This document shows, one piece after another, positions 1,197-45,310 of a stretch of 64,000 nt of DNA (its first letter is position 1; each line of letters opens with the position of its first letter). The position numbers and the translations under genes are program-made. The notes under the pieces were generated by a model. That model was given only the letters and a program-made list of their open reading frames with translations, was not told the DNA's origin and did no database searches. Source of the DNA: Pelobates cultripes (Eukaryota; Chordata; Amphibia; Anura; Pelobatidae); assembly GCA_933207985.1 (NCBI GenBank), contig OW240915.1, forward strand, positions 272,258,946 to 272,322,945, in the 5' to 3' direction.

Positions 1197-1779
1197 AGAT
1201 TTCACAGGTTTTGTGCCTTATATTGGTGGATTGATTACTTGATTTGCTGTCTTTGATACAGCATATTGATTGGCCCACTTTGTTTGTACCCACTCTGCCT
1301 CCACAAAGGTATAGTCCAAGGTTTATACTACCGGGTGAGCCTCGGTTACTATTTTCATTAATATTATTGCCTATTATTATTACTCATAATTAATATATTC
1401 CCATTATTATTATTAATTACTAGTGCTCAGTCTAAATTTACTTTGAATATATCATAACTGCCTGCTTTTCAGCCGGTTACTTGCCCAGGTTCCTAATGCT
1501 CCATCATTCTGTCTCCTGAACTTGTTCTCCAGATTGACCCTGGTTTCTGACCTTGGCTCCACTTTCCATTTATCCTGACCTCTGGCTTCGGCTTACCCTT
1601 GACTATCCTTCTGCTTGTGACCTTGTCTGTACTGTGTATTGGAGCACCTTTCCTGCATAGCCCCGTGCAAAGATTCATGGTTCAGGTGGCTTCTTACCTG
1701 GTCACCTTGGACTATGTTTATCTGCAAGGGTGAGCGAACATATCTGCGCTACAGAATCCAACCAAGATAAGCCGTGACA
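1197..1779 (+). repeat. Unassigned sequence with an LTR-like right part
   Basis: 1197-1480 is AT-rich with ATT-type low complexity and shows no gene. About 1480-1779 resembles the pyrimidine-rich part of amphibian gypsy LTRs and ends in CCGTGACA, the terminus often seen in such LTRs. No left LTR end, partner LTR or TSD was found, so a truncated solo LTR is only a guess. The DIRS coding remnant starts directly after it. Confidence 0.25.
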
Positions 1780-2495
1780 CCGCCTCTATACAGGCGATTT
1801 TTCCAGGACCTCTTCACTATTGGGCCATGCAATGCCTGAAGGCAAGATTCCTCAGGCAACAACCTTCCTACAATCAGGTAATCCTGGTCACCCCAGATGT
1901 CAAGGAGGAACTTTGATGGTGGTTCTTAAACATGTTTGCTTGGAACGGCAAAGCAATCTTCGGACCAACTCTGGATGTTATCATAGAGTCAGATGAGAGT
2001 CTCTGGGGCTGGAGTGCTACATCCTCGACCTCGTCCACGGGTGGACCATGGACAATCGTGGAAGCCGATTTCCATATCAACAGATTGGAGTTGATCGCAG
2101 GCTCGTTCTCGATCTGCAGTCTGGTCAGCCACCTGTCAGATTGTTGTATCCTCTTGAGAAAGGACAACATTTTGGCGGTGCAATATATCAATCATTTAGG
2201 CAGGGCTCGGTCACGGCTGCTATCAGAAGTGAACAAGGAGATCTACGGTTTTTGTTTCCTCCGCAACATTACACTGCAAGCAGAATATCTGCCAGGGGTT
2301 ACGAACCTGACAGCAGATTGGTTTTCCAGGTATTGGAGGGAAACCAGTGACTGGCGCCTTCACCACTCGATTTTCCTTCACATCGAACAGTTGAGAGGAT
2401 CATTTGTGGTGGATCTATTTGCTTCCCGGACAAATTTCTTCAGCTGGCTACCTGTTTCCGAGTGCTCGGCCGTGGACGCTTTCCTTCAAGAGTGA
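1780..2495 (+). pseudogene. DIRS reverse transcriptase C-terminus and RNase H (pseudogene)
   Basis: An open frame of 187 codons (from 1932) reads as the RNase H region of vertebrate DIRS elements. Recognisable blocks are NGKAIFGPTLDVIIESDES, HINRLELIAGSF, LRKDNILAVQYINHLG, AEYLPGVTNLTADWFSRY and VVDLFASRTNFFSW. The same frame extends upstream to about 1780 with RT-like sequence (LHYWAMQCLKARFLRQ) and a single stop at about 1914. The frame ends at DAFLQE plus TGA, where related proteins continue with W, so the stop probably came from TGG to TGA. Non-functional remnant. Confidence 0.8.
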
Positions 2496-3624
2496 CCTTC
2501 ACGGAGCGCCTACGTCTTTCCTCCGTCTGCTATGATTTCCAGGGTGCTTCTGCAGATCCGTCGGCAATAGGTTACCCTGGTGTTGAAAACACCGCTCTGG
2601 CACAGCCAGGCCTGGTTCACGGACCTGCTGGACATCACTTGGCAGGATCCCCTTCTGCTCCCATCTATACCAGACCTTCTACTGGATTGAAAAGGCCAAC
2701 CATATCTGCTGGTATTGGAAGACCATCTCTGCCTAGTACCATGGAATCTTTCCGGGGAATCTGGAATATCAGCAGTCTATTGCAGATGGCTAGAGACCTA
2801 CTCTTGGACTCATGGGTGATGCCTGGAATGGGACACTGATCCCCTTACAGCCCCTGTTTCCGGAGTCTTAACTTTCCTTTTGCACATTTTGAGTTAGGAA
2901 GATCCTATCGGTCTATCAATGTGGTTTGCTTAGCAATTTCGGCAGCTCATGTCCTGATACAGGGATCATATAGAGGACAGGATCCCTTTGTCTTCAGGCT
3001 CCTACGGGGCATTAAATTATCTCGCCTTCACACCTCTGGTACGTGAATCTGGTGCTTTCTTTCCTTCGGAATTGGCCGAATAATGAGGATCTTTCCCTTT
3101 GACAACGCTTAGCGAAACTTACTCTTCTGCTATGCCTTGTTTCCATCTGTAGGGTCTCTGATGTCCTCGCTTTTGACTCTGATGCCTTTTCCATTTCGCC
3201 AGATGGAGTTACCTTCTCCATCTCAAAACAGACGAAATCTGACTCTGCTACGTTTTTTTACTCGTACTTCTATGACCTTCCCAAACTTTGTGTGGTTTCT
3301 ACTCTCTCCTGCTATTCGGAGATTACTTCTCCCCTCCGCCACTCCTCATCAGGTCAACTTTTAATTTCCTATGTGTGCCCTTACAAACCAGTCTCTACCG
3401 CCACCTTGGCACGATGGATCCGGTGGTTGCTATAGTAAGCAGTTGTCGACACCTTCTTTGGTGCACACTCAGTTAGAAGCGCAGCAGCATCGGGAGCCTT
3501 TCTGGCGGTTGCTTCACTTTCTGATATTCTATGTTCTGCGGACTGGTCACGGGAGGACACCTTTCATCGATTCTATTTTCGTCCTCCTCCGCATGCTTCT
3601 CTGGCATTGATTGAGAAGCATTAA
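2496..3624 (+). pseudogene. DIRS tyrosine recombinase (pseudogene)
   Basis: Translation between 2496 and 3624, with several stops, gives blocks typical of DIRS recombinases: LWHSQAWFTDLLDITWQDP, SFLRNWPNNEDLSL, LTLLLCLVSICRVSDVLAFD, PYKPVSTATLARWIRWLL and ADWSREDTFHRFYFRP. Catalytic residues can still be read in one frame: Arg I (codon at 3151), the H-x-x-R pair in HSVR (3466-3477) and the nucleophile Tyr in FYFR (3574). The frame ends with TAA at 3622. Stops near 2830-3110 and at about 3432-3437 make it inactive. Confidence 0.8.
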
Positions 3625-6232: not shown

Positions 6233-6836
6233 CATGTTGCCAAAACGATTGTGGTGAGACCAAACATGATACAACTCCTCACAGTCCTAATACAAAATAC
6301 TATTATAAATCATCTACATATCTCAAATTGGAGTTTGAGAAGCCCTTCTTGGACATAGAAACTCAAGTCATGCTTCCACAACTATCCCAGAGTTCCCAGC
6401 TTGACATGCAAATGAGCGCAGACAGTCATCATTTTTCACACTTCATACTGCATTTCTGCAGATACCCTTAGCAATGGACACCATTTTAAACACAGTTTAG
6501 TTATTTTTTTCCGTTTGTTTTTATTTTTTTTAAAAAGCTTATGCTATGATCGAAAAGGATGAGCAGCCAGAGGCCAGCCTTGAACTGCAGTTTCAACCAT
6601 GTGGTTGTCATCAGCATGGCACTGGTTCTGGTCTGAAAGTTGAAGTCTTTTTATTAGAAAATATAGTTAGGCGCCAAAGAGATTGTGGTAAGACTAAACA
6701 AGATATAATTCCACACAGCGCAAATACAGAAATTACTGTTGTACATCATCTGCATATCTCAAGCTGAAATTTGTCATCTTTCAACAATTATCCCAGAGTT
6801 CCCAGTTTAACATGCAAATGAGCAGAGCAGTCAATA
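6233..6836 (+). repeat. Diverged tandem duplication (about 190-bp units)
   Basis: The two copies share GATTGTGGTRAGAC, CATCTRCATATCTCAA and a well-kept TATCCCAGAGTTCCCAG followed by an ATGCAAAT octamer. The spacing of blocks is similar in both. No protein frame is shared. Origin unknown. Confidence 0.55.
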
Positions 6837-6878
6837 GTACAGCAGAGGTAAATGTTAGAGATACTAAACTCTAAAGCA

Positions 6879-8725
6879 GGGGGGCGCAGTCTGACAGCCA
6901 AAGCGAATGGTCGCATGTGTATGGAGCTCTGGACCACGGGAGTCATAATAACCCTATTTTTGATACCCAGACCGGACTTACAGTGCCCTGTAACTCTACC
7001 CGGAGTGCTGCAGCCAGACGGGGAAAAAACAAAAAAACTGAGACAAGATGCGCCCCGAATGGCCATGAACATTGGGGATTTGTGGTGGCAGGCTCATGGC
7101 GCTCACGGGCCCAAAATGGTGTCCAATACTGGGGACTGGTCGTACCTCTCGGACGATACCTACCGGTTCAGGCACTTCCTCCACCGCCAACCCCCCTGAC
7201 AAAGCCAGACCCGGCTCCGGTGATGGCCACACTATTGAAAGAGCTACTGGTGGACTTACAAAAAACCTTCAGGCAGACATGGCCACGATACGCCAGGACC
7301 TGCAGGGCCTGGCAGGCTGAATTGGAGCACTGAAAACCACCTCACACTCCTGCAAGCAGCAGGTAACCACCTTCTTGCCGCCCTTGATGACTCCCGCCGC
7401 CGGAACAATCTAAAAGTTAGGGGACACTCTGAAAACATACCCGACGCGGAGCTTCCACACGTGCTGAGGAGATTGCTGACAGCCTTGCTAACACCCAATA
7501 GAACAATAGAGACAGAAGGAATATTCTGGGTGCCCAAACCCGCCTAAGCACCACCTACATCAACGAGGGATCTAATCATACAAATCCAAAAAGGAAAAGA
7601 TAAGGCAGCTCTCCTGAACGCACTGCAGGGCAATTTGTCATACTCCTTTGAAGACATACCACTGACATTCTATGCAGACCTCAGCGGTAGCACTTTGGCA
7701 TGGCGCCGGGAACTGAGGCCGCTTACTACCCTCCTACAGCAGCACAAAATCAACTAGATGGCGCCCTTCTCGTTCCTTGTCAATCCTCCATTGGACTTCA
7801 ACCCAAATCGTCTGAGACCTCCAGGAAGCTGCAACGATCCTGCAGCGCTTGGGAATCCCCCAACACTCCCTCAGCATTGACGCACCAGGTACAGCACCTC
7901 AACCAACCCACAGATGGAACCCGGGAACTTCTGTGGAATTTGTGCCCAGACAGGTTGCTCCGGGCACACAGGTCAGAGCCAAGACCTGACTTCAAACGGG
8001 ACTGCCTATTACAGGCCCAGTTCGGGACTCAAGTACTTGGGCGACCCTCTCCATGTAAGGCACAAAATCCCATGTCCTCACTTACACACAGAGTAGAATA
8101 AGTACCCTAACCCTTCTCAGACAGGATATAAATATTCTCCATCGTTCCCCCCTCTCCTCCCCCTTCTCTGGCCTAGGGGTTAATTGGGCTAGAAAGGCGT
8201 AAGCCACTCACCCGTGCATACTAGCCAAGAGCACACATATGTCCCACTGATAAGCTCCACGTCTCTAGTTAGAGATACTGTATGTTAACTTACCACCCTG
8301 TTAACGTTGGCATCTACCTTATGCTACAATTGGTTATGTTTTTATCGTTTATATTGTTTTTTCAGATGGCGTGCAATTCTATACTCACACACTAAACTCC
8401 TATGGGGCGACCGGGGGGGGGGGGGTTAATCACTCGAGGAACACTGCAAAGCACACCTAACCAACCCGCCTAACATAAATGCAACATTACATAACTTTCT
8501 TGCATTTTACTCTTCACTTTATAGGTGTACTATACTTTATCGTGCATACTTAAACGCTAAGCTAAGCCTGTTTATGTTTATGTACCACAAAACACAAATA
8601 TTGTGCCTATACTCATGCCACTGCTTAACATGCATATGATGTATACACTGTTGTGGCGTCTGACCTTGCAATGTACCTACCTGCATGACAAAAATAAAGA
8701 ATTAAAAAAAATATTAAAAAAAATT
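6879..8725 (+). mobile_element. ORF1-only L1-type retrotransposon (HAL1-like), with TSD
   Basis: The 1.85-kb insert is flanked by TAAACTCTAAAGCA (6865-6878 and 8726-8739), a 14-bp TSD of the kind made by L1 target-primed insertion. It starts GGGGGGCGCAGTC, carries a broken ORF1, then a 3' UTR with a C-rich block (8140-8170), a long G run (about 8411) and an A-rich end with AATAAAG. There is no ORF2 sequence between ORF1 and the 3' UTR. Such ORF1-only derivatives are known in mammals as HAL1. The part from 7620 on recurs at 30845-31952. Confidence 0.8.
7190..7990 (+). pseudogene. L1 ORF1 protein (RNA-binding, pseudogene)
   Basis: Frames give, in order, a coiled-coil piece (NLQADMATIRQDLQGLAG), an RRM-like piece (LAALDDSRRRNNLKVRG, ELPHVLRRLLTALLTPNR) and the C-terminal domain (DKAALLNALQGNLSYSFEDI, TFYADLSGSTLAWRRELRPL). 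In L1 elements ORF1p is a trimeric RNA-binding chaperone. There is a frameshift between coiled coil and RRM at about 7370, an in-frame stop after VPKPA at about 7546, and at 7757 a 2-bp loss (AACTAGATGG) against AACTATAGATGG in the second copy. Confidence 0.75.
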
Positions 8726-8739
8726 TAAACTCTAAAGCA

Positions 8740-10009
8740 TGTCCAAGTCTGAGCAATTGTGTCTTTCTGTGTTGCCCCGCACAAATATATATTTGGATAT
8801 TTTATTCCATGTACACTTATAGCTTTGTCCCCCGATTCATGCATTCATTCTCATGGGCTTCTTTGCACTCCTTTACAAGTTACCAATAAGATTTATTTTA
8901 TGTCAGTATCCGCCTTGACAACTTGTTACGATTTAAAATAAATAAATAAAAAAGAGAACTAAAAAATAATGAAGCCTCGTTAGTTGTTGTAGAGTTGGTA
9001 AAGTGGGTGAGAACAATTAAAATGTTGGTAATGGTTAAGGATGGGTGGCTCAGATGATTGCATGTAATCGAGTAAAAGGAATTATTTGATATGGAATGAT
9101 GGGAGAGATTATGAAGGGATCTGGTTCACAATAGCATGATTTAAATATAGAAATCAAAAGTATAATCATAAATCTCGAAATTAATGTACTACAATTTAAT
9201 ATGTACCCTTAAAACGATTTCACAAAAGTAGGCTATTTTCCGTACAAAAAGGTACAATAGGGAATCCACAATGGATAGACGATAAACGTAGCGTAAAGGT
9301 CAGGCTTGTCTGGCTCTCCTGTTATCGATATGTCCACAGAATTTGCTGAGCATCCAGCGTTGCATCAATTCAACTATTTGCAGCTATTTCTTTAGTAATG
9401 CAACCTTTACAAGGAGCTGCCATTTTATTTTTCCCAAAATAGACTATACTGTTAACCTACAGCCATGAGAGTAACTCTAATCCATCAATTTCTTCTGGGT
9501 GTTGAAAGCTTTTTCCATATGAAGGCTTTAAGGACACCTGTCTTATTTAACTATATTCAGTGTATCCCATGTGTAATCACTGTGGCATGTATATATAGCT
9601 TGCACGTTGCAGGGAGGTGCTGATAGAATTCTATCATACTGCCTTGAGGAATGCCTACAAATATGCATTAAACATGAAGCTTTTGGGAGTTTTAAAATAC
9701 TAAGTCACCAACTCACAGAGCATGCTTGTATGTGGCACTATATAGATTTTGTGAATATATATACACATTTGGATGGGAGCCATAGAAATCTTTCAGACTG
9801 AGTGCCAAAACTGATGTATATCTATTTCCGTGGTAAAGCTACTTTCTAAACATGGAGATAGCATCTTTAAATGCACAATGATAAATAGAGATCTTAATAT
9901 TCAACAGGGTCTTAAACATGTTATTGGGCAGAAAGTGTCTTTTGATTTATAGCCATTCATTTGCAGGCTAATCCATTTCTACGAAAGGAATTATTTCTGA
10001 TACATAACT
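8740..10009. other. No gene recognised
   Basis: AT-rich non-coding sequence, nearly identical at 31967-33236. The 60-64-codon open frames here are of chance length and resemble nothing I know. Confidence 0.6.
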
Positions 10010-10025
10010 TAGAACACTAACATTG
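10010..10025. repeat. Left TSD of the array
   Basis: TAGAACACTAACATTG, repeated at 13866-13881. It occurs once in copy B at 33237-33252. One or two bases at each edge are shared with the array, so the true length is 13-16 bp. Confidence 0.85.
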
Positions 10026-10325
10026 CCTAACAAGGCTGAAACGATCGTCTGGGGTTGCTGTATCTCTCGTGCAGAGAGAACTTGCTGGCATTTTGGATCT
10101 GGACTGCCCGTATGGGTGGGACCAGTCTGATATGTTTCAGATATGTTCTCTCTGTAATGGCACAAGATGAGCAAACATCAGCTTGAGAACTGAGCGGGGA
10201 CCGACCGAAGGGCAGGCTATTTCAGCTGCTGCCCGTCCTCAGTATTCTCTTGCGACCCATTTTTTGACTCTCTACAAGTTTAAAGGGATAATCCAGACGT
10301 GGACCCCTTGCTCACGGTGCCTAGG

Positions 10326-10395
10326 GAGATATCAGCTATGCCTCACTGATGATGCCTAACAAGGCTGAAACGATCGTCTGGGGTTGCTGTATCTC
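10326..10395 (+). ncRNA. Type I hammerhead ribozyme motif (array unit, well preserved)
   Basis: Stem I: GAGATA-CAGC-GCCTCA pairs with TGGGGT-GCTG-TATCTC, with a small bulge and internal loop. Core CTGATGA at 10346-10352. Stem II GCCT/AGGC closed by AACA. GAA at 10367-10369, then stem III ACGATCGT, a palindrome with essentially no loop, then C17 at 10378 (GTC cleavage triplet). The layout fits the family's catalytic core. One non-consensus point is a U-U at the 10.1/11.1 pair at the foot of stem II, usually G-C, so activity is unproven. A stem III this short often works as a dimer, which a tandem transcript could supply. Confidence 0.75.
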
Positions 10396-10653
10396 TCGTG
10401 CAGAGAGAACTTACTGGCATTTCGGATCTGGACTGCCTGTATGGGTGGGACCAGTCTGATATGCTTCAGATATGTTCTCTATGTAATGGCACAAGATGAG
10501 CAAAAATCAGCTTGAGAACTGAGCAGGGACCAACCGAAGGGCAGGCTATTTCAGCTGCTGCCCGTTCTCAGTATTGTCTTGCGACCCATTTTTGACTCTC
10601 CACAAGTTTAAAGGGATAATCCAGATGTGGACCCCTTGCTCACGGTGCCTAGG

Positions 10654-10723
10654 GAGATATCAGCTATGCCTCACTGATGATGCCTAACAAGGCAGAAACG
10701 ATCATCTGGGGTTGCTGTATCTC
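10654..10723 (+). ncRNA. Hammerhead motif, variant unit
   Basis: CTGATGA at 10674-10680 is intact. Stem II reads GCCT/AGGC and the base before GAAAC is A instead of T. Stem III reads ACGATCAT, so its pairing is weakened and the triplet becomes ATC. Confidence 0.6.
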
Positions 10724-10979
10724 TCGTGCAGAGAGAACTTGCTGGCATTTTGGATCTGGACTGCCCGTATGGGTGGGACCAGTCTGATATGCTTCAGATA
10801 TGTTCTCTCTGTAATGGCACAAGATGAGCAAACATCAGCTTGAGAACTGAGCGGGGACCGACCGAAGGGCAGGCTATTTCAGCTGCTGCCCGTCCTCAGT
10901 ATTCTCTTGGACCCATTTTTGACTCTCTACAAGTTTAAAGGATAATCCAGACGTGGACCCCTTGCTCACGGTGCCTAGA

Positions 10980-11049
10980 GAGATATCAGCTATGCCTCAC
11001 TGACGATGCCTAACAAGGCTGAAGCGATCGTCTGGGGTTGCTGTATCTC
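10980..11049 (+). ncRNA. Hammerhead motif, variant unit
   Basis: Reads CTGACGA at 11000-11006, tolerated because position 7 is variable. GAAAC has become GAAGC, which changes the first stem III base. Probably impaired. Confidence 0.55.
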
Positions 11050-11305
11050 TCGTGCAGAGAGAACTTGCTGGCATTTTGGATCTGGACTGCCGTATGGTGG
11101 GACCAGTCTGATATGCTTCAGATATGTTCTCTCTGTAATGGCACAAGATGAGCAAACATCAGCTTGAGAACTGAGCGGGGACCGACCGAAGGGCAGGCTA
11201 TTTCAGCTGCTGCCCGTCCTCAGTATTCTCTTGCGACCCATTTTTGACTCTCTACAAGTTTAAAGGGATAATCCAGACGTGGACCCCTTGCTCACGGTGC
11301 CTAGG

Positions 11306-11375
11306 GAGATATCAGCTATGCCTCACTGATGATGCCTAACAAGGCTGAAACGATCGTCTGGGGTTGCTGTATCTC
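11306..11375 (+). ncRNA. Hammerhead motif, well preserved unit
   Basis: CTGATGA at 11326-11332, stem II GCCT/AGGC, GAAACGATCGTC and the full stem I partner are all present, identical in layout to the unit at 10326. Confidence 0.7.
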
Positions 11376-11964
11376 TCGTGCAGAGAGAACTTGCTGGCAT
11401 TTCGGATCTGACTGCCCGTATGGGTGGGACCAGTCTGATATGCTTCAGATATGTTCTCTGTAATGGCACAAGATGAGCAAAAATCAGCTTGAGAACTGAG
11501 CGGGGACCACCGAAGGGCAGGCTATTTCAGCTGCTGCCCGTTCTCAGTATTCTCTTGCGACCCATTTTTGACTCTCTAGTTTAAAGGGATAATCAGACGT
11601 GGACCCCTTCCTCCACGGTGCCTAGGGGTATCAGCAGCTATACCTCACTGATGATGCCTAGCTAAGGCTGAAAAACGATAGATCTGGGGTTGCTGTATCT
11701 CTGGGTGCAGAGAGAGAACTTGCGCTACATTTTGGATCCTGGACTGCCGGTATGGGTGGGACCAGTCTGATGTCTCCAGATATGTTCTCTCTGTAATGGC
11801 ACAAGATGAGCAAAAATCAGCTTGAGAACTGAGCGGGGACCGACCGAAGGGCAGGCTATTTCAGCTGCTGCCCGTCCTCAGTATTCTCTTGCGACCCATT
11901 TTTTGACTCTCTACAAGTTTAAAGGGATAATCCAGACGTGGACCCCTTGCTCACGGTGCCTAGG

Positions 11965-12034
11965 GAGATATCAGCTATGCCTCACTGATGATGCCTAACA
12001 AGGCTGAAGCGATCGTCTGGGGTTGCTGTATCTC
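11965..12034 (+). ncRNA. Hammerhead motif, variant unit
   Basis: CTGATGA at 11985-11991 with intact stems I and II; GAAGC replaces GAAAC as in the unit at 10980. The neighbouring units at 11648, 12313 and 12634 have lost or scrambled core bases. Confidence 0.55.
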
Positions 12035-12937
12035 TCGTGCAGAGAGAACTTGCTGGTATTTCGGATCTGGACTGCCCATATGGGTGGGACCAATCTGATA
12101 TGCTTCAGATATGTTCTCTCTGTAATGGCACAAGATGAGCAAAAATCAGCTTGAGAACTGAGCGGGGACCGACCGAAGGGCAGGCTATTTCAGCTGCTGC
12201 CTGTCCTCAGTATTCTCTTGCGACCCATTTTTGACTCTCTACAAATTTAAAGGGATAATCCAGACGTGGACCCCTTGCTCACGGTGCCTAGGAAGATATC
12301 AGCTATGCCTCACTGATGATGCCTAACAAGGCTGTATTCTGCAGAGAGAACTTGGTATTTTGGATCTGGACTGCCCGTATGGTGGGACCAGTCTGATATG
12401 CTTCCTGTGATATGTTCTCCTCCTCTGTAATGGCACACAAGATGAGCAAACATCAGCTTGAGAACTGAGCTGGACTCAATCAAGGGCAGGCTATTTCAGC
12501 TGCTGTCTGCCCCTCAGTATTCTCTCTCTTTGGCGCAATCTATTTTTGACTCTCTACAAGTTTAAAGGGATAATCCAGACGCGGGACCCCTTTGCTCACG
12601 GGTGCCTTAGGGAGTGTGTATCAGCTATGCTCAATTGATATGCCCGCACAAAGCTGAAACGATCGCCTGGGGTTGCTGTATCTCTCGTGCAGAGAGAACT
12701 TGCTGGCATTTCGGATCTGGACTGCCCATATGGGTGGGACCAGTCTGATATGCTTCAGATATGTTCTCTCTGTAATGGCACAAGATGAGCTAAAACCAGC
12801 TTGAGTTCTGAGTGGGGACCTACTCAAGGGCAGGCTATTTCAGCTGCTGTCCGTTCTCAGAATACTCGTGACTCATTTTTTGCTTCCCATAAGTTTAAAG
12901 GGTAATCCAGACGTGGACCCCTTGCTCACGTGCCTAG

Positions 12938-13005
12938 GGTACCAGCTATGCCTCACTGATGATGCCTAACAAGGCTGAAACTATCGTCTGGGGTTGCTGT
13001 ATCTC
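12938..13005 (+). ncRNA. Hammerhead motif, unit with shortened stem I
   Basis: CTGATGA at 12956-12962, then GAAACTATCGTC. The 5' strand of stem I has lost the GAGATA block, so only the inner pairs remain. Confidence 0.5.
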
Positions 13006-13264
13006 TCGTGCAGAGAGAACTTGCTGGCATTTCGGATCTGGACTGCCCGTATGGGTGGGACCAGTCTGATATGCTTCAGATATGTTCTCTCTGTAATGGC
13101 ACAAGATGAGCAAACATCAGCTTGAGAACTGAGCGGGGACCGACCGAAGGGCAGGCTATTTCAGCTGCTGCCCGTCCTCAGTATTCTCTTGCGACCCATT
13201 TTTAGACTCTCCACAAGTTTAAAGGGATAATCCAGACGTGGACCCCTTGCTCACGGTGCCTAGG

Positions 13265-13334
13265 GAGATATCAGCTATGCCTCACTGATGATACCTAACA
13301 AGGCTGAAACTATCGTCTGGGGTTGCTGTATCTC
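13265..13334 (+). ncRNA. Hammerhead motif, variant unit
   Basis: CTGATGA at 13285-13291, stem II reads ACCT/AGGC, and stem III is ACTATCGT, so one pair is changed. Stem I is intact. Confidence 0.55.
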
Positions 13335-13592
13335 TCGTGCAGAGAGAACTTGCTGGCATTTTGGATCTGGACTGCCCGTATGGGTGGGACCAGTCTGATA
13401 TGCTTCAGATATGTTCTCTCTGTAATGGCACAAGATGAGCAAAAATCAGCTTGAGAACTGAGCGGGGACCGACCGAAGGGCAGGCTATTTCAGCTGCTGC
13501 CCGTCCTCAGTATTCTCTTGCGACCCATTTTTGACTCTCTACAAGTTTAAAGGGATAATCCAGACTTGGACCCCTTGCTCACGGTGCCTAGG

Positions 13593-13662
13593 GAGATATC
13601 AGCTATGCCTCACTGATGATGCCTAACAAGGCTGAAACGATCGTCTGGGGTTGCTGTATCTC
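13593..13662 (+). ncRNA. Hammerhead motif, well preserved unit
   Basis: CTGATGA at 13613-13619, GCCT/AGGC stem II, GAAACGATCGTC and full stem I. It is the last complete core before the array ends at 13866. Confidence 0.7.
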
Positions 13663-14766
13663 TCGTGCAGAGAGAACTTGCTGGCATTTTGGATCTGGAC
13701 TGCCCGTATGGGTGGGACCAGTCTGATATGCTTCAGATATGTTCTCTCTGTAATGGCACAAGATGAGCAAACATCAGCTTGAGAACTGAGCGGGGACCGA
13801 CCGAAGGGCAGGCTATTTCAGCTGCTGCCCGTCCTCAGTATTCTCTTGCGACCCATTTTTGACTCTAGAACACTAACATTGTCTCAGATTTCCTGGCCAC
13901 TATTTGGACCTTCGTAAGCACCACTAGAAAGTGCTTTCCCAACCAAGCTTCATGTGGTTTATTTGTTCAGTCCACAGGGGATTTACTGTTTGGAACGTTG
14001 TCAAACATGGATGACCATGGAGGCTACAAATAAATCCAAATTTAGTAGTGCTGTCCTGTCATCATTGCATGTAAATATCTAAAAATCTATTGCACCAATA
14101 AACTCTTTATATGGACTAAGGTTACATTGTATATGTCACGTCCTGTTACATTCTGCATATTATTTCTGTCTTGGCTTCTGGTATCCAGTATTCTTTTTAC
14201 AATTCTTAGTTTAGTTTTTCTTGGTTTTTCTGGTTCTGTGTTCCATGTCTGGTTTTCTTAATGATGGATTTTCTGGGTTCATTCCTTTACTCCATTCCTG
14301 GAATTGCCAGTCTCCTGGATTCCTTTAAATGTTTGTTTTTTTGTTGCCACACCCGATCCTTTGACATTTATCCCTTTGTTTCAGTGTGTTAATGCTAGCA
14401 GTGGTCTCATTTGTCTGCTCCTTTCCTTGCAGGTAAGTACTGTGTGTTTTATTGTTGTAATTTTAGTCACGCATATCTAGGCAGTTAGGACCCACCGTAA
14501 TTGGAGTACTTTGGCACAGTGGTGGGCTGCATACATCTTGGCCATTCAGGGGCGGATCCAGAACCTAATCTCGGGAGGGGCACTGGTAGGAACAATTCAG
14601 GCATTATAACCACTACAGCTCTTTGTAGAGGTTATGGTGCCAGGAGTGCTGTGGAACACTACCAAAGTAAGTAGTCAAACCATTTAAGAACAGTTTGACA
14701 CCTTACCTAGGGTCTGCCAGGGTAGGAGCTGTAGTAAGGGAAAGAGACTATAGTAGGGGATTGGGG

Positions 14767-15440
14767 TAGTAGTGTGTGCCATGTGTGGGGTGCAATGTGT
14801 GTATGAGGGGTGTGGTGTGTGTGAGGGATGCAGTGTGAGTGTTTTTGAGAAGGGTGCAGTGTGTGTGTGTGAGGGGTGCAATGTGTGTATGTGAGGGGTG
14901 TGGTGTGTATGTGAGGGGTGCAGTAAGTATGTGCACTGGGTGCAGTGTGTTTGAGTGAAGGGTGCAGTGTGTGTAAATGAAGGGTGCAGTGTGTGAGTGA
15001 GGGGTGCAGTATGTGTGAGGGGTACAGTGTGTGTGATAGTCTGCAGTATGTGAAGGGTGTAATGTGTGAGGGGTGTAGTGTGTGTGAGGGGTGCAGTGTT
15101 TGTGTGTGTGAAAGGTGCAGTGTTTGTGAATGGGGGTGCAGTGTGTGTGTATGGGGGTGCAGTGTGTGTATGGGGTGCAGAAAGTATATAGGGTGCATTA
15201 TGCGTGTATGGGGGTGCAGTGTGTGTGTATGGGGTGCAGTGTGTATGTATAGGGTTGCTGTGTGTGTATGCGGGTGCAGTAAGTGTATGGGGTGCAGTGT
15301 GTGTGTATAGGGGTGCAGTGTGTGTATGGGGGTGCAGTGTGTATATGGGTGCAGGGTGTGTATGGGGGTGCAGTGTGTGTGTATGGAGTGCAGTGTGTGT
15401 ATGTGGGTGCAATGTGTGTGTATGGAGGTGCGGTATGTAA
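14767..15440 (+). repeat. GT-rich minisatellite
   Basis: Imperfect units built on GGGGTGCAGTGTGTGTAT, about 16-24 bp each. All six frames are open over long stretches because the unit lacks stops, giving false proteins rich in His-Thr-Pro or Cys-Val-Gly. Copy B differs by about 38 bp of unit gain near 34660. Confidence 0.9.
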
Positions 15441-15462
15441 ATGTGTAGGGAGTTATTGTGTG

Positions 15463-15465
15463 GGG

Positions 15466-15518
<53 letters not shown>

Positions 15519-15525
15519 TTATTAT
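15463..15525. repeat. TA microsatellite and poly-T
   Basis: A TA run broken by TTTATA, followed by a T run. It is mirrored at about 34874-34930. Confidence 0.9.
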
Positions 15526-16093
15526 TAAAAATAAATATACTTTATATCCCCCCTCCCTTCTTACCTTTGCTGAGGGAGGGGGGATATTTCCTGCAATCCG
15601 TGGTGGTTCGGTGGAGAACCCTGGTGGTCCTAGTGGTTAGAGTGAACTCTAACCTGCAGCTCAGGCTAGCGTTCACTCTCGCGAGATCCGGAGCGTTGCC
15701 ACGGTAATCGCGGCAATGCTTCGTTCTTGCGAAAAGAGCACCAGGAGGCGCTGCAGGCTGAGCTATCAGCTCCTCTCTCCATCCGTCGCTGGTCGCTAGC
15801 AAAGTGCCTGCGGACTGGTGAGGGAGATCTCTGATCTCCCCTCCGGTCCGTGAAGGAACACAGCATGGGAGAGGTAGAGCTTTGGCTCTTTACTATTTTC
15901 TCAGGAGGGCTGGGGGAGGGGGGGGGTGACACTTGCCCTGTTGCCTCCCCCTCTGGATCTGCCAATGTGACCATTTATGTATGTCTAAATCTCCAATGTT
16001 TATTACATATATATAGTACTTAGTTATTTCTCCTCTTGTTTTGCCTTGTATTGTCTTGTTTTATTTTGTCTTATATTCCTAGTTCATGTACAG

Positions 16094-17222
16094 CAGTCAT
16101 GTCCAAAGTCTTGCAATTGGCCCACGTTCCGGTTTAATACGGCCCCACAGGTAGTTTGGCTAATCTATCTGTTGTGGCCCCCAGTGAATCCCTAAGCGCC
16201 GCTTAGGACTCCTGGGATATTTAAACGCTGTGGTCCTGAGCGGTGCTCTGGGATTCACTGGGGGCCAAGAGATTGTGAGAACGCAGACAGACATGCAGTG
16301 ACCTTGGTTCCTTCTCCCTGCTGGGACAGAAAAACCGAGAATGGACAGAATAAAAAGGTACAGAATAAAGAGGGACATAATAAAGAGAGACAGAATAAAG
16401 AGAGACAGAATAAAGAGAGACAGAAGGACAGAATAAAGAGAGACTGAATAAAGAGAGACAGAATAAAGAGGGACTGAATAAAGAGAAAAGGGACACAATT
16501 AAAGAGAGAAGGGACAGAATAAAGGGAGAAGAGTCAGAAAAAGAGAGAAGGGACAGAATAAAGAGAAAGAGAATAGACAGAATAAAGAGAGAAGAGAGAG
16601 AATAAAGAGAATAAAGAGAGAAGGGACAAAACAAAGAAAGAAGAGACTGAATAAATAGAATAAAGAGAGAGGGGACAGAACAAAGAGAGAAGGGACAGAA
16701 CAAAGAGAGGGGAGACAGAATAAAGAGAGAAGGGACAGAATAAAGAGAGAAGATAGAATAAAGAGAGAAGAGACAGAATAAAGAGAGAAGGGACAGAATA
16801 AAGAGAGAAGATAGAATAAAGAGAGAAGAGACAGAATAAAGAGAGAAGGGACAGAATAGAGAGTGAAGGTACAGAATAAAGAGAGAAGAGACAGAATAAA
16901 GAGTGAAGGGACAGAATAAAGAGAGAAGAGACAGAATAAAGAGTGAAGGGACAGAATAAAGAGAGAAGAGACAGAATAAAGAGTGAAGGGACAGAATAAA
17001 GAGAGAAGTGACAGAATAAAGAGAGAAGAGACGGAATAAAGAGAGAAGGGACAGAATGAAGAGATGAAATAAAAAGTATGCCATTTGCAATAAATTTTGC
17101 ATAAAATAGTTAATTTACATTCAATTTTAATGGTTCAAAGAATGTCAGGCAAAATGGTTGGCCCTCACGCATGTTCACTTCATCAAATCTGACCCTCTTT
17201 GAAAAAGGTTTGGACACCCCTG
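16094..17222. mobile_element. hAT-type non-autonomous element with purine minisatellite
   Basis: Left tip CAGTCATGTCCAAAGTC and right tip GGTTTGGACACCCCTG are imperfect inverted repeats. A perfect 8-bp TSD ATGTACAG lies at 16086-16093 and 17223-17230. The interior has a palindromic block (about 16165-16275: GGCCCCCAGTGAATCCC and its inverse) and a long purine minisatellite. Confidence 0.8.
16340..17055 (+). repeat. Purine-strand minisatellite, about 20-bp unit
   Basis: Units are variants of GAGAGAAGGGACAGAATAAA. One strand is almost pure purine, so triplex or slipped structures are plausible. The minus-strand Leu/Phe/Ser-rich open frame is an artefact of the repeat. In copy B the block differs, with extra variant units at about 36445-36530. 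Confidence 0.9.
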
Positions 17223-17542
17223 ATGTACAGCCATGTCCTGTTCTTGTTTCCCTTATATCTGGTGTACATGTTCACTGGGTTCTGCATTCTGTCCTGCTCC
17301 GGTTCTGGGTTCTTCTAGTCTTGTTTGGTGCCTATTCTAGTCTTGCCTTGTTTCTAGTACTAGATACATATCTGCAGAAGCTGCATCAGGGCCCTATTAT
17401 GTGGCCGCACAAACCCAGGTGCTCAACACCAAGGGGGTGTGTGGTTACCCTGCACCAGACCCTGATTGCTCATTTCCACACTGTAACTCCTACCATCATC
17501 AGGGATACAGGGGTCCCGGTTTCCACACCGCCACCCGTGACA

Positions 17543-18944
17543 GTATGCTGCTCTCCTTTCTCTTGGATGCTGAATATCTTGTTGTTCATTATTATCGTCC
17601 ATTGCTTCTCTGTTTACACCTAATTAAAAGTGATTTATAATAGATTACTACAGATTAATGCTGTCTGTTCCTGGTATATCTGCACTATTTAACAGAAAAA
17701 CTAAAGTGAAAAATATGAACGGTTCGCCGCGGACTCATCATTGAGTAAACTTTGACCCTGTACCTCACAGTCAGCAGACACATTCCAGCCAATCAGCAGC
17801 AGACCCTCCCTCCCAGACCCTCCCACCTCTTGTGGGGCAGTTAAGAGGAGGGGGCAGAGGGATGAAGGTGAGAAGAGAAGAGAAGTGAGGGTAATGGTTA
17901 ATGGGGGGGAGGGGTGGGCAGGGCAAATCTATATTTATAGAAATGCACATATCTACATATCTCTGCCCACTCACATTTGTGCAGTATAAAATCAAGGAAA
18001 AAGACCCAGGAGTTAGAAAAGGTTGATATTTTCCAAATTATAGTTTCCCAGGACCCGAGGCATACTGGGAAAACGCCTTAAAGGAAGTAATGTGATGCTT
18101 CTATAAATGTCCGGGTATATACAGCAAATACAGTTCTGTTCTGTGGGATCACTAAGTACAATTAGCCCTGCTAAACATTGCTTGCCAATTAATGTTTTGG
18201 TTAGACAGGTATTGGCAATGCTTTTCTTGTAATTTCCACTTTAACATAATCTGATTGGATCCCTGTTTTTGTCCATCGAATATGTGTCTGTAACATAGTA
18301 CATGCATATGAAACACTACACCATTAATTAGCATTGATTCCCTCATTCCAGACATGCTCTGTGTGCATTCGTATTAAAAGGCATGAAATATCACTTGTCT
18401 GCTAATCATTTCTTTGCATTATGCTAAAATCATTTGAGGGAGCATTTAAAAATTAGAGAATCTTACACAGATAATTGATTTCTTTGCAAAAATTGAGGGT
18501 ATGAAAGGAAAAAATGTAAATGATAGCTATAGAAAATGTGTCCAGCCTTAATGCCCATTGCAGCGTTCTAGATAATGTGTTATCCATTGTTACACATTCA
18601 TTGTGTTAGTACACACAGCAGGGATACATAGTTGCCTAACCTATGGGCAAATGGGATTTATAACTGAACTGAGCTGTCAGCTCCAATTAGTGTTCAAATA
18701 AATCATTATGGTATCTAACAATTAGTTACTCTATGAACCATACTTTCATTCTTCATGCCTTCCCAAGATATGTTTGTACCCGAGCTTATCAAACAATCCC
18801 AATAAATGCAGTTTTTGAACATGTCTACAAATTACTAGAGATTACTTAACTCCATAGGTCATCTATGGGAAAGGTAATTGTATGTTTGGTCTCAGTAATT
18901 GTGTTACATGTATAGACCATAACCTGACTCATTTCAATCACGTG
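17543..18944. other. No gene; fragment of the GTTCGCC hAT family
   Basis: 17720-17840 (GAACGGTTCGCCG, TCATTGAGTAAACTTTGACC, TTCCAGCCAATCAGCAGCAG) matches the miniature element at 43516-43923. The rest is AT-rich and non-coding, and is shared with 37044-38431. Confidence 0.55.
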
Positions 18945-19299
18945 TAGTGATGTCGCGAACCCGAAATTTTCGGTTCGCGAATGGCGAACGCGAACTTCCG
19001 CAAGTGTTAGCGAACCGGCGAACCGCCTGAAACGCCATTGACTTCAATGGGGAGGCGAATTTTAAAACACACAGGGACTCTTTCTGGCCACAATAGGGAT
19101 GGAAAAGTTGTTTCAAGGGGACTAACACCTGGACTGTGGCATGCCGGAGGGGGATCCATGCCAAACTCCCATGGAAAATTACACAGTTGATGCAGAGTCT
19201 GGTTTTAATCCATAAAGGGCAGAAATCACCTAACATTTCTAAATCACAATGAATATGGATTGACACCTGACATATGACATATTGACACCTTGACATATG

Positions 19300-19579
19300 G
19301 ATTGACACCTGTCCTCAGAGCCCTGATGCACACGGACACAGAGCAGAATAGAGACTGGTCCCCCTACATAGGGTCACTTGGCAGATATGGATTGACACCT
19401 GTCCTAAGGATCCCTGATACACACTGACACAGAGCAGAATAGGGACTGTTCCCCCTACATCGGGTCACTTGGCAGATATGGATTGACACCTGTCCTAAGG
19501 TTCCCTGGTACACACTGACACAGAGCAGAATAGGGACTGGTCCCCCTACATCGGGTCACTTGGCAGATATGGATTGACA

Positions 19580-19590
<11 letters not shown>
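19300..19590 (+). repeat. Three 91-92 bp tandem units (block 1)
   Basis: Units begin GGATTGACACCTGTCCTAAG and contain GATACACACTGACACAGAGC, AGAATAGGGACTG and GGGTCACTTGGCAGATAT. The series is interrupted at about 19580 and resumes as block 2 at 22205. Confidence 0.85.
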
Positions 19591-21960
<2,370 letters not shown>

Positions 21961-22204
21961 GTAACAGGCAGATGGAAGAAGATGCTTGGTTGGTCCTCCT
22001 AAACTGGGAGACTGTGTTGCTGTACCGGGTGGCAGGTGGAGCCATTTATAAAGTACACACTCAAGCTTTATAAAGCCATTTATAAAGTACACACTGGCTA
22101 AGCCGAACCCTAGTTGGTGGCAGATAAGTCACGCAAGTCAACAGGCATTCAGAGCTGAAATACAGCTGTTGACCATTTTAGCCCAAGCAGCCTATCTCAT
22201 CAGG

Positions 22205-22640
22205 CCTTACATAGGGTCACTTGGCAGATATGGATCGACACTCCGTCCTAAGGATCCCTGATACACACTGACACAGAGCAGAATAGGGAATGTTACCCCA
22301 ACATAGGGTCACTTGGCAGATATGGATTGACACCTGTCCCAGAGCCCCTGATACACACTGACACAGATCAGAATAGGGAATGTTACCCCAACATAGGGTC
22401 ACTTGGCAGATATGGATTGACACCTGTCCTAAGGTTCCCTGATACACACCGACACAGAGCAGAATAGGGACTGTTCCTCCTACATCGGGTCACTTGGCAG
22501 ATATGGATTGACACCTGTCCTAAGGATCCCTGATACACACTGACACAGAGCAGAATAGGGAATGTTACCCCAACATAGGGTCACTTGGCAGATATGGATT
22601 GACACCTGTCCTAAGGATCCCTGATACACACCGATACACA
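22205..22640 (+). repeat. Five 91-92 bp tandem units (block 2)
   Basis: Same unit as block 1 at 19300-19590 (GATATGGATTGACACCTGTC, ACACTGACACAGAGCAG). It runs directly into the gypsy polymerase fragment. Confidence 0.85.
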
Positions 22641-23966: not shown

Positions 23967-25075
23967 TATCAGAAGAACTACTCTCAATTTCAACTCAAAC
24001 TGAAAACTCATACAATTGTAACCATACCTTCCCAAAATCCTGGTGAGCCTATGCGTGGGGGGCATGGGTGTCCTAAGGAGAAGCCTTGCAGAAAACCCCC
24101 TGGGGTGTGTTCTTGCAATAACCAACAGCGGGCTCTCTTAAATCACAGTCAAAAAGCAGTGTGTGTGTGTGTGTGTGTGTGAAAATGAGGATTGAACAGT
24201 TACCTCCACACGCGTTCTTCAACTGTTTTATTTTATTTATTTATTTTTGGTCTGGCTATAAAAAAAGAAAAAAAGTTGCATCAAAGTACTCCACATGCAA
24301 TACCTTGGGGTGTCCACGTTTCAAAGTGTGTATCCTTTCGTGGCGATCTATAAAACTGGGCTCTGTGATAAGCCCCAAGCTAAAGATAGGCCTATCAGAA
24401 GAACTACTCTCAATTTCAACTCAAACTGAAAAGTCATACAATTGTAACCATACCTTCCCAAAATCCTGGCGAGCCTATGCGTGGAGGGCATGGGTGTCCT
24501 AAGGAGAAGCCTTGCAGAAAACCCCCTGGGGTGTGTTCTTGCAATAACCAACAGCGGGCTCTCCTAAATCACAGTCAAAAAGCAGTGTGTGTGTGTGTGT
24601 GTGTGAAAATGAGGATTGAACAGTTACCTCCACATGCGTTCTTCAACTGTTTTATTTTATTTATTTATTTTTGGTCTGGCTATAAAAAAAGAAAAAAGGT
24701 TGCATCAAAGCACTCCACATGCAATACCTTGGGGTGTCTACGTTTCAAAGTGTGTATCCTTTTGTGGCGATCTATAAAACTGGGCTCTGTGATAAGCCCC
24801 AAGCAAAAGATAGGCCTATCAGAAGAACTACTCTCAATTTCAACTCAAACTGAAAAGTCATACAATTGCAACCATACCTTCCCAAAATCCTGGCGAGCCT
24901 ATGCGTGGGGGGCATGGGTGTCCTAAGGAGAAGCCTTGCAGAAAACCCCCTGGGGTGTGTTCTTGCAATAACCAACAGCGGGCTCTCCTAAATCACAGTC
25001 AAAAAGCAGTGTGTGTGTGTGTGTGTGTGAAAATGAGGATTGAACAGTTACCTCCACAAGCGTTCTTCAACTACT
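23967..25075 (+). repeat. Tandem 424-426 bp repeat, about 2.6 copies
   Basis: Units begin TATCAGAAGAACTACTCTC at 23967, 24393 and 24817 and include a TG microsatellite (about 24159, 24583, 25008) and a TTTATTTATTTATTTTTGG block. The first unit starts at the gap and the third breaks off at about 25075. Identity between units is very high. No protein. Confidence 0.9.
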
Positions 25076-25406: not shown

Positions 25407-25909
25407 TGTGAGGAACTGACTCTGCTGGGTTTCGAACCCTCATTTACATGGTGCTAAACCTCTTCCTTACCAGTACACCAGCCTGCCTTTTGCAAATTTA
25501 CCTGAGATCTGATACCATTGCTTGTAGAGTCAAGGTTATCAGTGACAACTCACTTCAGCTGTGTCTAGTCAGGTGTCTGGTTCTTGGCCTATAAAAGCCA
25601 CTTCCTGTCTCTGTACCTTTGCCAGATTATTGTGGTTCCTGTACTCTCTAATCAAGCGTGTTCCTGTTTCTCCTTCCTGTTGCTGAATTTGGACTGTTTT
25701 GACTTTGCTGCTTCTCCTTCCAACTGACCTCGGCTTGCCTCACTACGATTATCATCTTTCTGTTCCAGTCTCCCATCTCTGCTTAAGACCAGAAGGCCAC
25801 TCAAGGCTCAGGGGCTCAACCACCTGGGTAACGAGTGGCTACCTCTGGCAGAAAACATTGCTGATCTGGCTACTGGACTCCAAAACTTTGGAACATCAAT
25901 ATCATTACA
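25407..25909 (+). repeat. 5' LTR of the gypsy element
   Basis: TG...CA termini. CCTATAAAAG at about 25590 is a good TATA box, so the element's promoter likely starts transcription about 25-30 bp downstream. The gag ATG follows only 18 bp after the LTR. I could not identify a convincing tRNA primer site in that gap. Confidence 0.88.
25585..25600 (+). promoter_or_regulatory. TATA box in the 5' LTR
   Basis: CCTATAAAAGCC, repeated at the same place in the 3' LTR (about 30522). Inferred from sequence only. Confidence 0.5.
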
Positions 25910-25927
25910 GAATAATCTGGCCCATTC

Positions 25928-27862
25928 ATGGAGACCGTCGGATCAGATTCTGCATTGGCCCAGCAGGTTGCTTTTAATGCAAGAACTATGCAGACCCAGG
26001 CACAGACCATTCAAGTGCTGCGGGATCAGGTAGCTGAACTGCAAAATGAAGTTCGATCAATGCATAGTGAGCTTACCAGCTACAGGGCACATGATGTTGC
26101 GGCTGCTGCTACTACTACTGTTACACCTGCACAAGATGCCCGCTTGCCTCTACCAGAAAAATTTGGAGGAGACCGCAAAAAATTCAGGGGTTTCCTAAAT
26201 CAATACCGTTTGCATTTCATGATGTTACCTAACCGTTTTCCATCTGAAAGAGAGAAGGTGGGATTTATTTTTTCCCTCTTCAAAGATGAAGCCCTGGCCT
26301 GGGGCTCCCCTTTTCTGGAACAGGACAGTCCAATCTTGGGAAACTTAAAAGACTTTCTTGAGGCCATGTGCCTAGTTTTTGATGATCCCAATCGCTGTGC
26401 TACAGCAGAAGCCACTCTCCTTCATTTACATCAAGGGAGGCGATCTGTGGCTGAATATGCTGCTAAATTCAGACAGTGGGTTACTGATACTACTTGGAAC
26501 CAATCAGCCCAGAGGTTCCACTTCAGAAGGGGTCTCTCAGAAGCTATAAAAGATGAGCTAGCTCGTGTTGATCTTCCTGTTGAGTTTGATGCACTTGTGC
26601 GGTTGGCTATCCGTATTGATCGGAGACTTTCAGAAAGAAGATTGGAAAGACAGGGCTCTTTTAAACCAAGTGCTACTCCTACTTTCTATTCAAGAATTTC
26701 TACTCCGACCCCACAAACACCTACAGACTCTGAACCTGAGGCTATGCAGGTAGATCTAATAAGAGGGCCATTATCCAATGAAGAAAAACAGTGGCGACGC
26801 ACTCACAACTTATGCCTGTATTGTGGTAGTGCAGGGCATTATGCCATCAAGTGCCCTAACAAGTCTAAAAGAACAATAGCTATGACTGCTGAGGGTGCAC
26901 AGATTCAACACCAATCCCAGATTTCAGACCAACTGGATTCTGTCACACAACCCTTGTTTTCTCTGGCTCAGGGTGAAGAAGGTATGATGACTCAACATCC
27001 TCATTTGGTGGTGACTATCACTTTGCAATATGGTAATAATAAAATTTCAACTACAGCTATGATAGATTCCGGAGCAGGCGGAAACTTTATGGACATTAAA
27101 TTTGCAGCAGGAAATAAAATTCAGTCTATCCCTAAATCTTCACCTGTGTTAATGGAAACAGTAGATGGTTCTCCACTTACGTCAGGCCCGGTTACACATG
27201 AGACTGTGCCCTTAAAATTGATTCTGGAAGTGAATCACCATGAGTCTATATCTTTCCACCTAATTTCCTCAACACAGTTTCCAGTGATTTTGGGTATACC
27301 CTGGCTTGCTCTGCATAACCCACAGATTGATTGGAAGACTAGAACTTTGTCCTTTCCTTCAGAACACTGCTTAATGAATTGTCAACCCTCTAAGGCGACA
27401 CCTGTTACCACAACAATTAATGAAATGGTTGCTACAAACTTAACTAAGCTTCCGCTACAATATCAGGATTTTGCAGATGTCTGTGATAAGAAGAATGCTG
27501 ATCAGCTTCCACCTCACAGGCCTTATGATTGCCCCATGGAGCTGCTACCTGGAGCTGCTATCCCATTTGGCCGTATATACTCCCTTTCTGAGCCTGAATT
27601 GAAAGCACTTCGTGAATACATACAAGAAAATCTTGCCAAAGGCTTTATTCGACCATCCACTTCTCCAGCAGGAGCTCCTATATTCTTTGTAGAAAAGAAA
27701 GATGGCAGTCTGCGGCCATGTGTCGATTACAGGGACATTAATAAAATCACTGTTAAAAACCGTTATCCCTTGCCTCTCATTTCTGAACTTCTGGAGAGAC
27801 TTCGTTCAGCTAAAATATTTACGAAGCTTGATCTACGGGGGCATATAATCTGGTTCGCATAA
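25928..27862 (+). CDS. Gypsy Gag-protease-RT (N-terminal part of the polyprotein)
   Basis: 644 codons. Residues about 14-50 form a heptad-rich coiled coil; about 75-230 match the gypsy Gag capsid region (LPEKFGGDRKKFRGFLNQY). A CCHC zinc knuckle has Cys296, Cys299, His304 and Cys309. The aspartic protease has DSG at 380-382. RT begins after about 540 and shows FVEKKDGSLRPCVDYRDINK. The frame ends at 27862 because one G is missing from a G run at about 27837-27841, inside the LDLR.. RT motif; the next part continues in another frame. The ATG at 25928 is the first in frame and sits just after the LTR. Confidence 0.88.
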   Translation: METVGSDSALAQQVAFNARTMQTQAQTIQVLRDQVAELQNEVRSMHSELTSYRAHDVAAAATTTVTPAQDARLPLPEKFGGDRKKFRGFLNQYRLHFMMLPNRFPSEREKVGFIFSLFKDEALAWGSPFLEQDSPILGNLKDFLEAMCLVFDDPNRCATAEATLLHLHQGRRSVAEYAAKFRQWVTDTTWNQSAQRFHFRRGLSEAIKDELARVDLPVEFDALVRLAIRIDRRLSERRLERQGSFKPSATPTFYSRISTPTPQTPTDSEPEAMQVDLIRGPLSNEEKQWRRTHNLCLYCGSAGHYAIKCPNKSKRTIAMTAEGAQIQHQSQISDQLDSVTQPLFSLAQGEEGMMTQHPHLVVTITLQYGNNKISTTAMIDSGAGGNFMDIKFAAGNKIQSIPKSSPVLMETVDGSPLTSGPVTHETVPLKLILEVNHHESISFHLISSTQFPVILGIPWLALHNPQIDWKTRTLSFPSEHCLMNCQPSKATPVTTTINEMVATNLTKLPLQYQDFADVCDKKNADQLPPHRPYDCPMELLPGAAIPFGRIYSLSEPELKALREYIQENLAKGFIRPSTSPAGAPIFFVEKKDGSLRPCVDYRDINKITVKNRYPLPLISELLERLRSAKIFTKLDLRGHIIWFA

Positions 27863-30353: not shown

Positions 30354-30844
30354 CTCTGCTGGGTTTTGAACCCTGGTTTACATGGTGCTAAACCTTTTCC
30401 TTACCAGTACACCAGCCTGCCTTTTGCAAATTTACCTGAGATCTGATACCATTGCTTGTAGAGTCAAGGTTATCAGTGACAACTCACTTCAGCTGTGTCT
30501 AGTCAGGTGTCTGGTTCTTGGCCTATAAAAGCCACTTCCTGTCTCTGTACCTTTGCCAGATTATTGTGGTTCCTGTACTCTCTAATCAAGCGTGTTCCTG
30601 TTTCTCCTTCCTGTTGCTGAATTTGGACTGTTTTTGACTTTGCTGCTTCTCCTTCCCACTGACCTCGGCTTGCCTCACTACGATTATCATCTTTCTGTTC
30701 CAGTCTCCCATCTCTGCTTAAGACCAGAAGGCCACTCAAGGCTCAGGGGCTCAACCACCTGGGTAACGAGTGGCTACCTCTGGCAGAAAACATTGCTGAT
30801 CTGGCTACTGGACTCCAAAACTTTGTAACATCAATATCATTACA
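30341..30844 (+). repeat. 3' LTR of the gypsy element
   Basis: Matches 25407-25909 with few changes (for example TTTTGAACC for TTTCGAACC, CCCTGG for CCCTCA, one added T at about 30635). A purine-rich GTAGAGGTGGAGGTAA precedes it and may serve as the polypurine tract. Confidence 0.88.
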
Positions 30845-31952: not shown

Positions 31953-31966
31953 TAAACTCTAAAGCA

Positions 31967-33236: not shown

Positions 33237-33252
33237 TAGAACACTAACATTG
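33237..33252. other. Empty target site of the ribozyme array
   Basis: TAGAACACTAACATTG occurs once here, continuous with the sequences that flank the array in copy A. Confidence 0.85.
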
Positions 33253-34873: not shown

Positions 34874-34926
<53 letters not shown>

Positions 34927-45300: not shown

Positions 45301-45310
45301 TTGATGCTTC

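Follow-up and report, generated by a model that had tools for sequence, protein, structure and literature searches.

The stretch of DNA analysed here (GenBank OW240915.1, positions 272 258 946 to 272 322 945; 64 000 nt, called the window in its full length) carries on its plus strand, at 10026-13866, a tandem array of ~3.84 kb that is very probably an inserted retrozyme. The array consists of 328-bp units arranged head-to-tail, 11.7 copies as determined by Tandem Repeats Finder and by unit alignment; at a period of 328 bp the program reported 7.0 copies at 10024-12334 and 4.6 copies at 12340-13866. Positions of the two ends, 10026 and 13866, were set by comparison with a second, array-free copy of the locus, with an uncertainty of one shared T. 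This agrees with the initial annotation, made from sequence letters only, which had placed about 12 units of about 328 bp at the same coordinates. With unit position 1 defined as the first base past the cleavage site, the array stops at unit position 221, and its left end falls within hammerhead stem II. Apart from the units, no repeat was detected within the insert by tandem-repeat analysis and self-comparison (a primer binding site and a polypurine tract were not searched for). The window is made of two contigs, 1-23866 and 23967-64000, with 100 N between them. Small clusters of indels and substitutions were seen at about 11575-11785 and 12330-12960 in the otherwise regular array; these indel-dense parts look like poorly polished long-read assembly.

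We found in the array 11 type I hammerhead sites, all on the plus strand and one per full unit; eight of them have a complete core, retaining CTGANGA, GAA and a UH cleavage site, and three are broken. The expectation of a hammerhead in each unit is thus borne out as to presence, and as to completeness of the core only for the eight. The first complete site (10326-10395) consists of GAGATA-CAGC-GCCTCA, CTGATGA at 10346, stem II GCCT/AGGC, GAAAC, the self-complementary ACGATCGT and GTC ending at 10378, followed by TGGGGT-GCTG-TATCTC; all parts named in the initial annotation, including the two-part stem I, are present there, and cleavage is predicted after C10378. Five further sites were matched, as was the first, by both a strict descriptor and a covariance model: 10980-11048 (CTGACGA core, GAAG, cut after 11032), 11306-11374 (complete, cut after 11358), 11965-12033 (GAAG, cut after 12017), 12936-13004 (TATC in loop III, cut after 12988) and 13593-13661 (complete, cut after 13645; also matched by Rfam Hammerhead_1 with 23.8 bits). 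Two sites with complete cores were recognized by the covariance model and missed by the strict descriptor: 10654-10722, in which a U-A pair forms the base of stem II and stem III contains a C-A mismatch (core at 10674, cut after 10706), and 13265-13333, with a single A-C mismatch in stem II (core at 13285, cut after 13317). The covariance model also matched the three broken sites, with cores near 11652, 12314 and 12642: in 11625-11700 small insertions break the motif, 12293-12367 is without its 3′ half, and in 12615-12683 the core reads TTGATAT instead of CTGATGA. The breakage looks at least partly due to apparent assembly noise.

In canonical sites stem III has two pairs and a tetraloop, AC-GATC-GT. 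A palindromic stem III had been described for the array; it does occur, although just three of the 11 sites, plus the partial unit 10026-10049, contain the exact palindrome ACGATCGT. The U.U at the base of stem II, also noted earlier, is found in seven of the eight complete sites, the site at 10674 having U-A. GAAG replaces GAAA in two of the eight (cores at 11000 and 11985).

The strict descriptor was drawn from general knowledge of hammerheads after the motif had been seen, with the first stem II pair left free. Applied to both strands, it matched six sites, every one within the array; 150 versions of the window shuffled with dinucleotides preserved yielded no match. A relaxed descriptor matched the same six sites and two more on the minus strand (none in 600 shuffles). 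With the covariance model we observed 14 matches in the window to E-value 1: the 11 array sites, one partial unit at the left end and two sites on the minus strand. Ten of the 11 array sites and a diverged copy described below served to build the model and match it by construction; outside the training set were 12293-12367, 9999-10065 and 6567-6632. Structure-wide pairing reached 91.7% of cells, versus at most 45.7% in slid versions. For unit 13318-13645, folding predicts a strongly self-paired RNA, with −128.9 kcal/mol and a z-score of −5.44 relative to 100 shuffles. The motif pattern was also sought in viral contigs, and none was found there.

The array is flanked by two identical 15-bp direct repeats, AGAACACTAACATTG at 10011-10025 and again at 13867-13881 on the plus strand (16 bp if the T at 10010 and the T at 13866 are counted). 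None of 282 random pieces reached a flank match of 15, the best having 13. A second copy of the locus (30845-38432) runs from left flank to right flank directly, with no array and with a single AGAACACTAACATTG at 33238-33252 on the plus strand. The left flanks (7620-10025 and 30845-33252) differ by four substitutions in 2406 aligned bases, the right flanks (13867-18945 and 33238-38432) by 17 in 5065. Overall, over 7471 aligned bases, there are 21 substitutions (0.28%; 99.7% identity) and four indels between the two copies, 7620-18945 and 30845-38432, about 7.5 kb with the array set aside. As direct repeats of 15 bp flank the array and the array-free copy has one, the array is most simply read as an insertion with a 15-16-bp target-site duplication.

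The two locus copies lie on separate contigs, with the 100-N gap between them, and could be either a recent segmental duplication or uncollapsed alleles beside the gap. That the array-free site is the other allele, left uncollapsed by the assembly gap, and the array a presence/absence variant in this individual, is an alternative to be taken seriously, if held at somewhat less than even chances: the contig arrangement and the small number of differences favour it, while the homology breaks off abruptly at 7620/30845 and 18945/38432, without resuming anywhere in the window. Such an allelic relationship would be compatible with insertion and would make the insertion younger.

Beyond the array, the 64-kb window contains one dispersed copy of the 328-bp unit, a diverged single unit on the minus strand at 45098-45363 (nhmmer with a doubled-unit profile, E-value 1.2e-28). 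It spans the cleavage site, with the hammerhead at 45240-45310; CTGATGA and GAAAC are retained, and the basal pair of stem II is G.U. One pair of inner stem I is U-A there versus C-G in most units, and one pair of outer stem I is A-U versus G-C. In Rfam this copy matched only Hammerhead_3 (18.2 bits, E-value 0.07). The last base of the array has unit position 221, and the diverged copy (from 45363 on the minus strand) begins to align at profile position 222; the boundary of the diverged copy is uncertain, and the coincidence is perhaps due to chance.

We characterize the array, with high confidence, as a non-autonomous, non-long terminal repeat (non-LTR) animal retrozyme inserted as a single block of about 3.84 kb. 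The retrozyme reading of the initial annotation gains support from the target-site duplication with the array-free site, from the dispersed second copy and from the agreement of the motif with the axolotl hammerhead HHR_Amex2. We file it as a newly found representative of a kind already known from published relatives. Of the features by which non-LTR animal retrozymes are recognized, four were observed or predicted: a hammerhead per unit, tandem repeats within 150-450 bp, a target-site duplication of >4 bp and a self-paired RNA.

Several observations weigh against this characterization. Rfam at the gathering score gave no match in the whole window. The initial annotation had listed the lack of any hammerhead hit above threshold among its refuting observations, and at the gathering score there was none; on the other hand, Hammerhead_1 matched an 81-base piece from its first to its last position, with 23.8 bits (E-value 3.2e-4) against a gathering score of 34. 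That search used laxer filters and a small search space, and its E-value is not comparable with that of the whole-window search. The shortfall would be about the cost of the U.U at the base of stem II and of the G.U pairs in stem I. To E-value 10 over 9900-13950 Rfam gave five matches, of which the sole hammerhead was HH9, in one unit and below threshold (15.6 bits, E-value 5); the other four, to small nucleolar RNAs, were taken as chance. Furthermore, the hammerhead is not the best predicted fold of the motif (−21.6 versus −31.4 kcal/mol); the best fold pairs the cleavage-site strand with part of CUGAUGA. The energy rules used ignore tertiary contacts, and under such predictions weak activity of the monomer would be expected. 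Covariation gives no proof, since the two pairs changed on both sides were equalled in 58 of 500 shuffles, which is not significant. No target-site duplication was seen around the diverged copy, where 235 of 300 random pieces score as high. The 3′ end of the array has no poly(A). The array has a G+C content of 49.8%, at the top end of what is published: below the 50% given in text and not below the 45% of a figure legend.

How such a block could have been produced may be outlined from published relatives. The tandem units would be transcribed into a multimeric RNA, which would cut itself after GUC in every unit. It would most likely do so as hammerhead pairs, because stem III has just two pairs and a self-complementary 8-nt arm; two copies of ACGATCGT could pair into an eight-pair stem III. 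By analogy, RNA circles would form; the RNA would be reverse transcribed by an enzyme of another element, and insertion at a staggered nick would leave the 15-16-bp target-site duplication. The suggested movers of animal retrozymes are Penelope-like or other non-LTR elements, and the repeats are described as holding no deciding motif (PMC7229834, PMC7761336).

The 3′ end of the array lies six bases past a run of five T, away from the cleavage site. This does not fit a linear self-cleaved RNA copied from its end; it fits a circle or an uncut multimer primed inside, and does not discriminate between these two. The nick consensus of L1-type elements is TTTT/AA. Had the template been RNA of hammerhead sense, the bottom strand would have been nicked first, at TTCT/AA, near to this consensus; a fit of this kind is not rare, given two possible boundaries and two orientations.

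Differences among units bear on the nature of the template. The statistics are for 11 units, leaving aside the 24-nt partial unit 10026-10049 and a noisy unit inside 12018-12667, whose columns were dropped; a set of eight less noisy units was obtained by removing by eye those at 11359, 11685 and 12668, with their clustered indels or substitutions. Mean pairwise divergence is 2.3% among the eight and 4.06% among all 11. The eight units carry 35 substitutions from the consensus, versus 3.5-7.1 expected to have arisen in place since the locus copies parted; for all 11 the figures are 79 and 4.9-9.8. Variants shared by at least two of the 11 units occur at seven sites, with all four combinations at nine of the 21 site pairs; the eight units have three such sites, and the full set of combinations occurs at two of the three pairs. 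Similarity between units does not increase with proximity in the array (Mantel r −0.12, with 3993 of 5000 permutations at least as high), which, though a weak test with seven sites, fits units drawn from a pool.

Since the units differ from one another more than the flanks do, and by more than is expected to arise in place, and since the shared variants are reshuffled among them, we tentatively suggest that the template was a mixed multimer, such as an uncut transcript of an older array or the product of an enzyme jumping between monomers, rather than one circle copied repeatedly. Against it counts that the suggestion presupposes an array-free older state of the locus, in which case the insertion is younger than the split of the locus copies, and depends on assembled sequence that is partly noisy. 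Loss of an old array from the second copy, gene conversion and partial assembly error are the alternatives; the last does not easily account for variants common to clean units. One could speculate further that vertebrate retrozymes can move as long mixed multimers, the block of 11.7 units, taken from several distinct source units, having jumped ready-made at an L1-like TTCT/AA nick without poly(A); we put this forward with less than even confidence. If true, transposition of mixed multimers would replace, for this retrozyme family, the model of one circle reverse transcribed several times round.

That published model (PMC7229834, PMC7761336) holds that a single monomeric RNA circle was reverse transcribed for several rounds, here with the units made different by later mutation, by gene conversion from other copies or by assembly error. 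The position of the 3′ end, away from the cleavage site where a linear self-cleaved RNA would end, agrees with it, and the units at 10050, 11033, 13318 and 13646 have just one or two differences from the consensus. Still, the unit differences are too numerous for the age estimated from the flanks, and shared variants appear in all four combinations, so that we consider a single circle rather unlikely. Less probable yet is an old array that predates the split of the locus copies, its units having diverged in place, and that the second copy later lost when the 15-bp repeats recombined. No mixed template would then be needed for the unit differences, and deletion between direct repeats would leave one copy, as observed; however, the deletion would have had to be exact, between 15-bp repeats separated by 3.86 kb, and the identity of the array would be the same on this reading. 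An ordinary satellite grown by unequal exchange, with an incidental hammerhead, for which head-to-tail units with reshuffled variants would be usual, is highly improbable in view of the target-site duplication with its array-free site, the dispersed single copy at 45098-45363 and, weakly, the lack of likeness between neighbouring units.

Another hammerhead-like motif, different in sequence, was detected on the minus strand at 6567-6632, with its core at 6614, a GTT cut site at 6583 and a palindromic TGCA loop over a two-pair stem III. It was matched by the covariance model (21.5 bits, E-value 0.0028) and by the relaxed descriptor (none in 600 shuffles); Rfam to E-value 10 showed no hammerhead there. 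The motif sits between two old direct copies, 6673-6833 and 6239-6428, about 405 bp apart and 68% identical (E-value 3.2e-20), and because of these flanking copies it could be the remnant of a second family of retrozymes. No kinship of the surrounding DNA with the 328-bp unit was shown, as 38 of 196 background pieces score as high.

Other repeats are present in the window. A Ty3/Gypsy-type LTR retrotransposon occupies 25407-30845; its LTRs are 98.6% identical, and its three open reading frames match gag, protease, reverse transcriptase, RNase H, integrase and chromodomain. Its end, 30845, coincides with the left limit of homology of the second locus copy; the outer five bases on the two sides do not match, as judged by eye. 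Among the matches listed for the reading frame 27925-29496 (the best 120 of 6379), the ten closest were seven named frog proteins and three from fish; the frog relatives are from Lithobates pipiens (66% identity over 57% of the query), Leptobrachium, Phyllobates and Aquarana. These relatives point, if indirectly, to a frog as the probable host. Further tandem arrays were observed at 19295-19582, 20999-21998, 22209-22638 and 23967-25072, with units of 91 bp (two places), 172/335 bp and 424 bp (the last adjoining the assembly gap); neither the strict nor the relaxed descriptor found a hammerhead in them. No Pfam family was found in 6600-8400 and 1500-3200 (three plus-strand frames each) or in 7620-10025 (six frames).

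Both the enzyme responsible for moving animal retrozymes and the idea of a single circle as template are left as open questions in PMC7229834 and PMC7761336. A young insertion with both ends, a duplication and an array-free site makes the nick site and the 3′ end accessible, and unit variants traceable to source loci. A single locus provides a lead; with a few dozen of them from this genome, template and enzyme could be put to a direct test.

Among known systems, the plant LTR retrozymes, with type III hammerheads in LTRs and a 4-bp duplication, do not match the array, which has a type I motif and a 15-16-bp duplication and for which we found no LTR. An orthologous element-free site is on record for a citrus retrozyme, and repeats of Nematostella are described with 15-bp target-site duplications like those of long interspersed nuclear elements (PMC4918200). 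The minimal hammerheads of Penelope-like elements are likewise type I, tandem and thought to act as dimers; unlike the present ones, they are described without stem III or loop contacts. The scanned parts of the window yielded no Penelope protein. Among the literature matches listed (the best 15 of 304 in the broadest search) there was no anuran retrozyme, the nearest being the statement that hammerheads of Xenopus tropicalis occur in interspersed repeats (PMC3088659). We liken these to the array by description: they are from a frog and lie in repeats, and the same paper records natural U10.1-U11.1 mismatches, with more cleavage than for any other mispair; the passage concerned, however, gives no unit sequence, insertion site or tandem structure.

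Satellite 2 of newts and HHR_Amex1 of axolotl (about 330 bp; PMC7229834, PMC6155905) resemble the array in unit length, tandem order, extended stem I with an internal loop, short stem III and expected action as dimers. They differ in a stem III of a single pair, and the U.U is described for Amex2, not for Amex1. The closest likeness in motif is to the axolotl retrozyme HHR_Amex2 (Rtz_353), compared here by its published description only: tandem repeats of ~330-350 bp, type I, a two-pair stem III with a tetraloop, and U.U at the base of stem II (PMC7229834). Its unit is ~350 bp versus 328 bp here, and the present host is probably a frog. HHR_Amex2 is reported to cut as a dimer and to be found as circular RNA; for axolotl monomers cleavage within one hour is low, 6% and 22%, and for dimers it is far higher (PMC7229834). 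The concern of the initial annotation that the U-U may lower activity would appear, by analogy, to be answered by this known relative with the same U.U.

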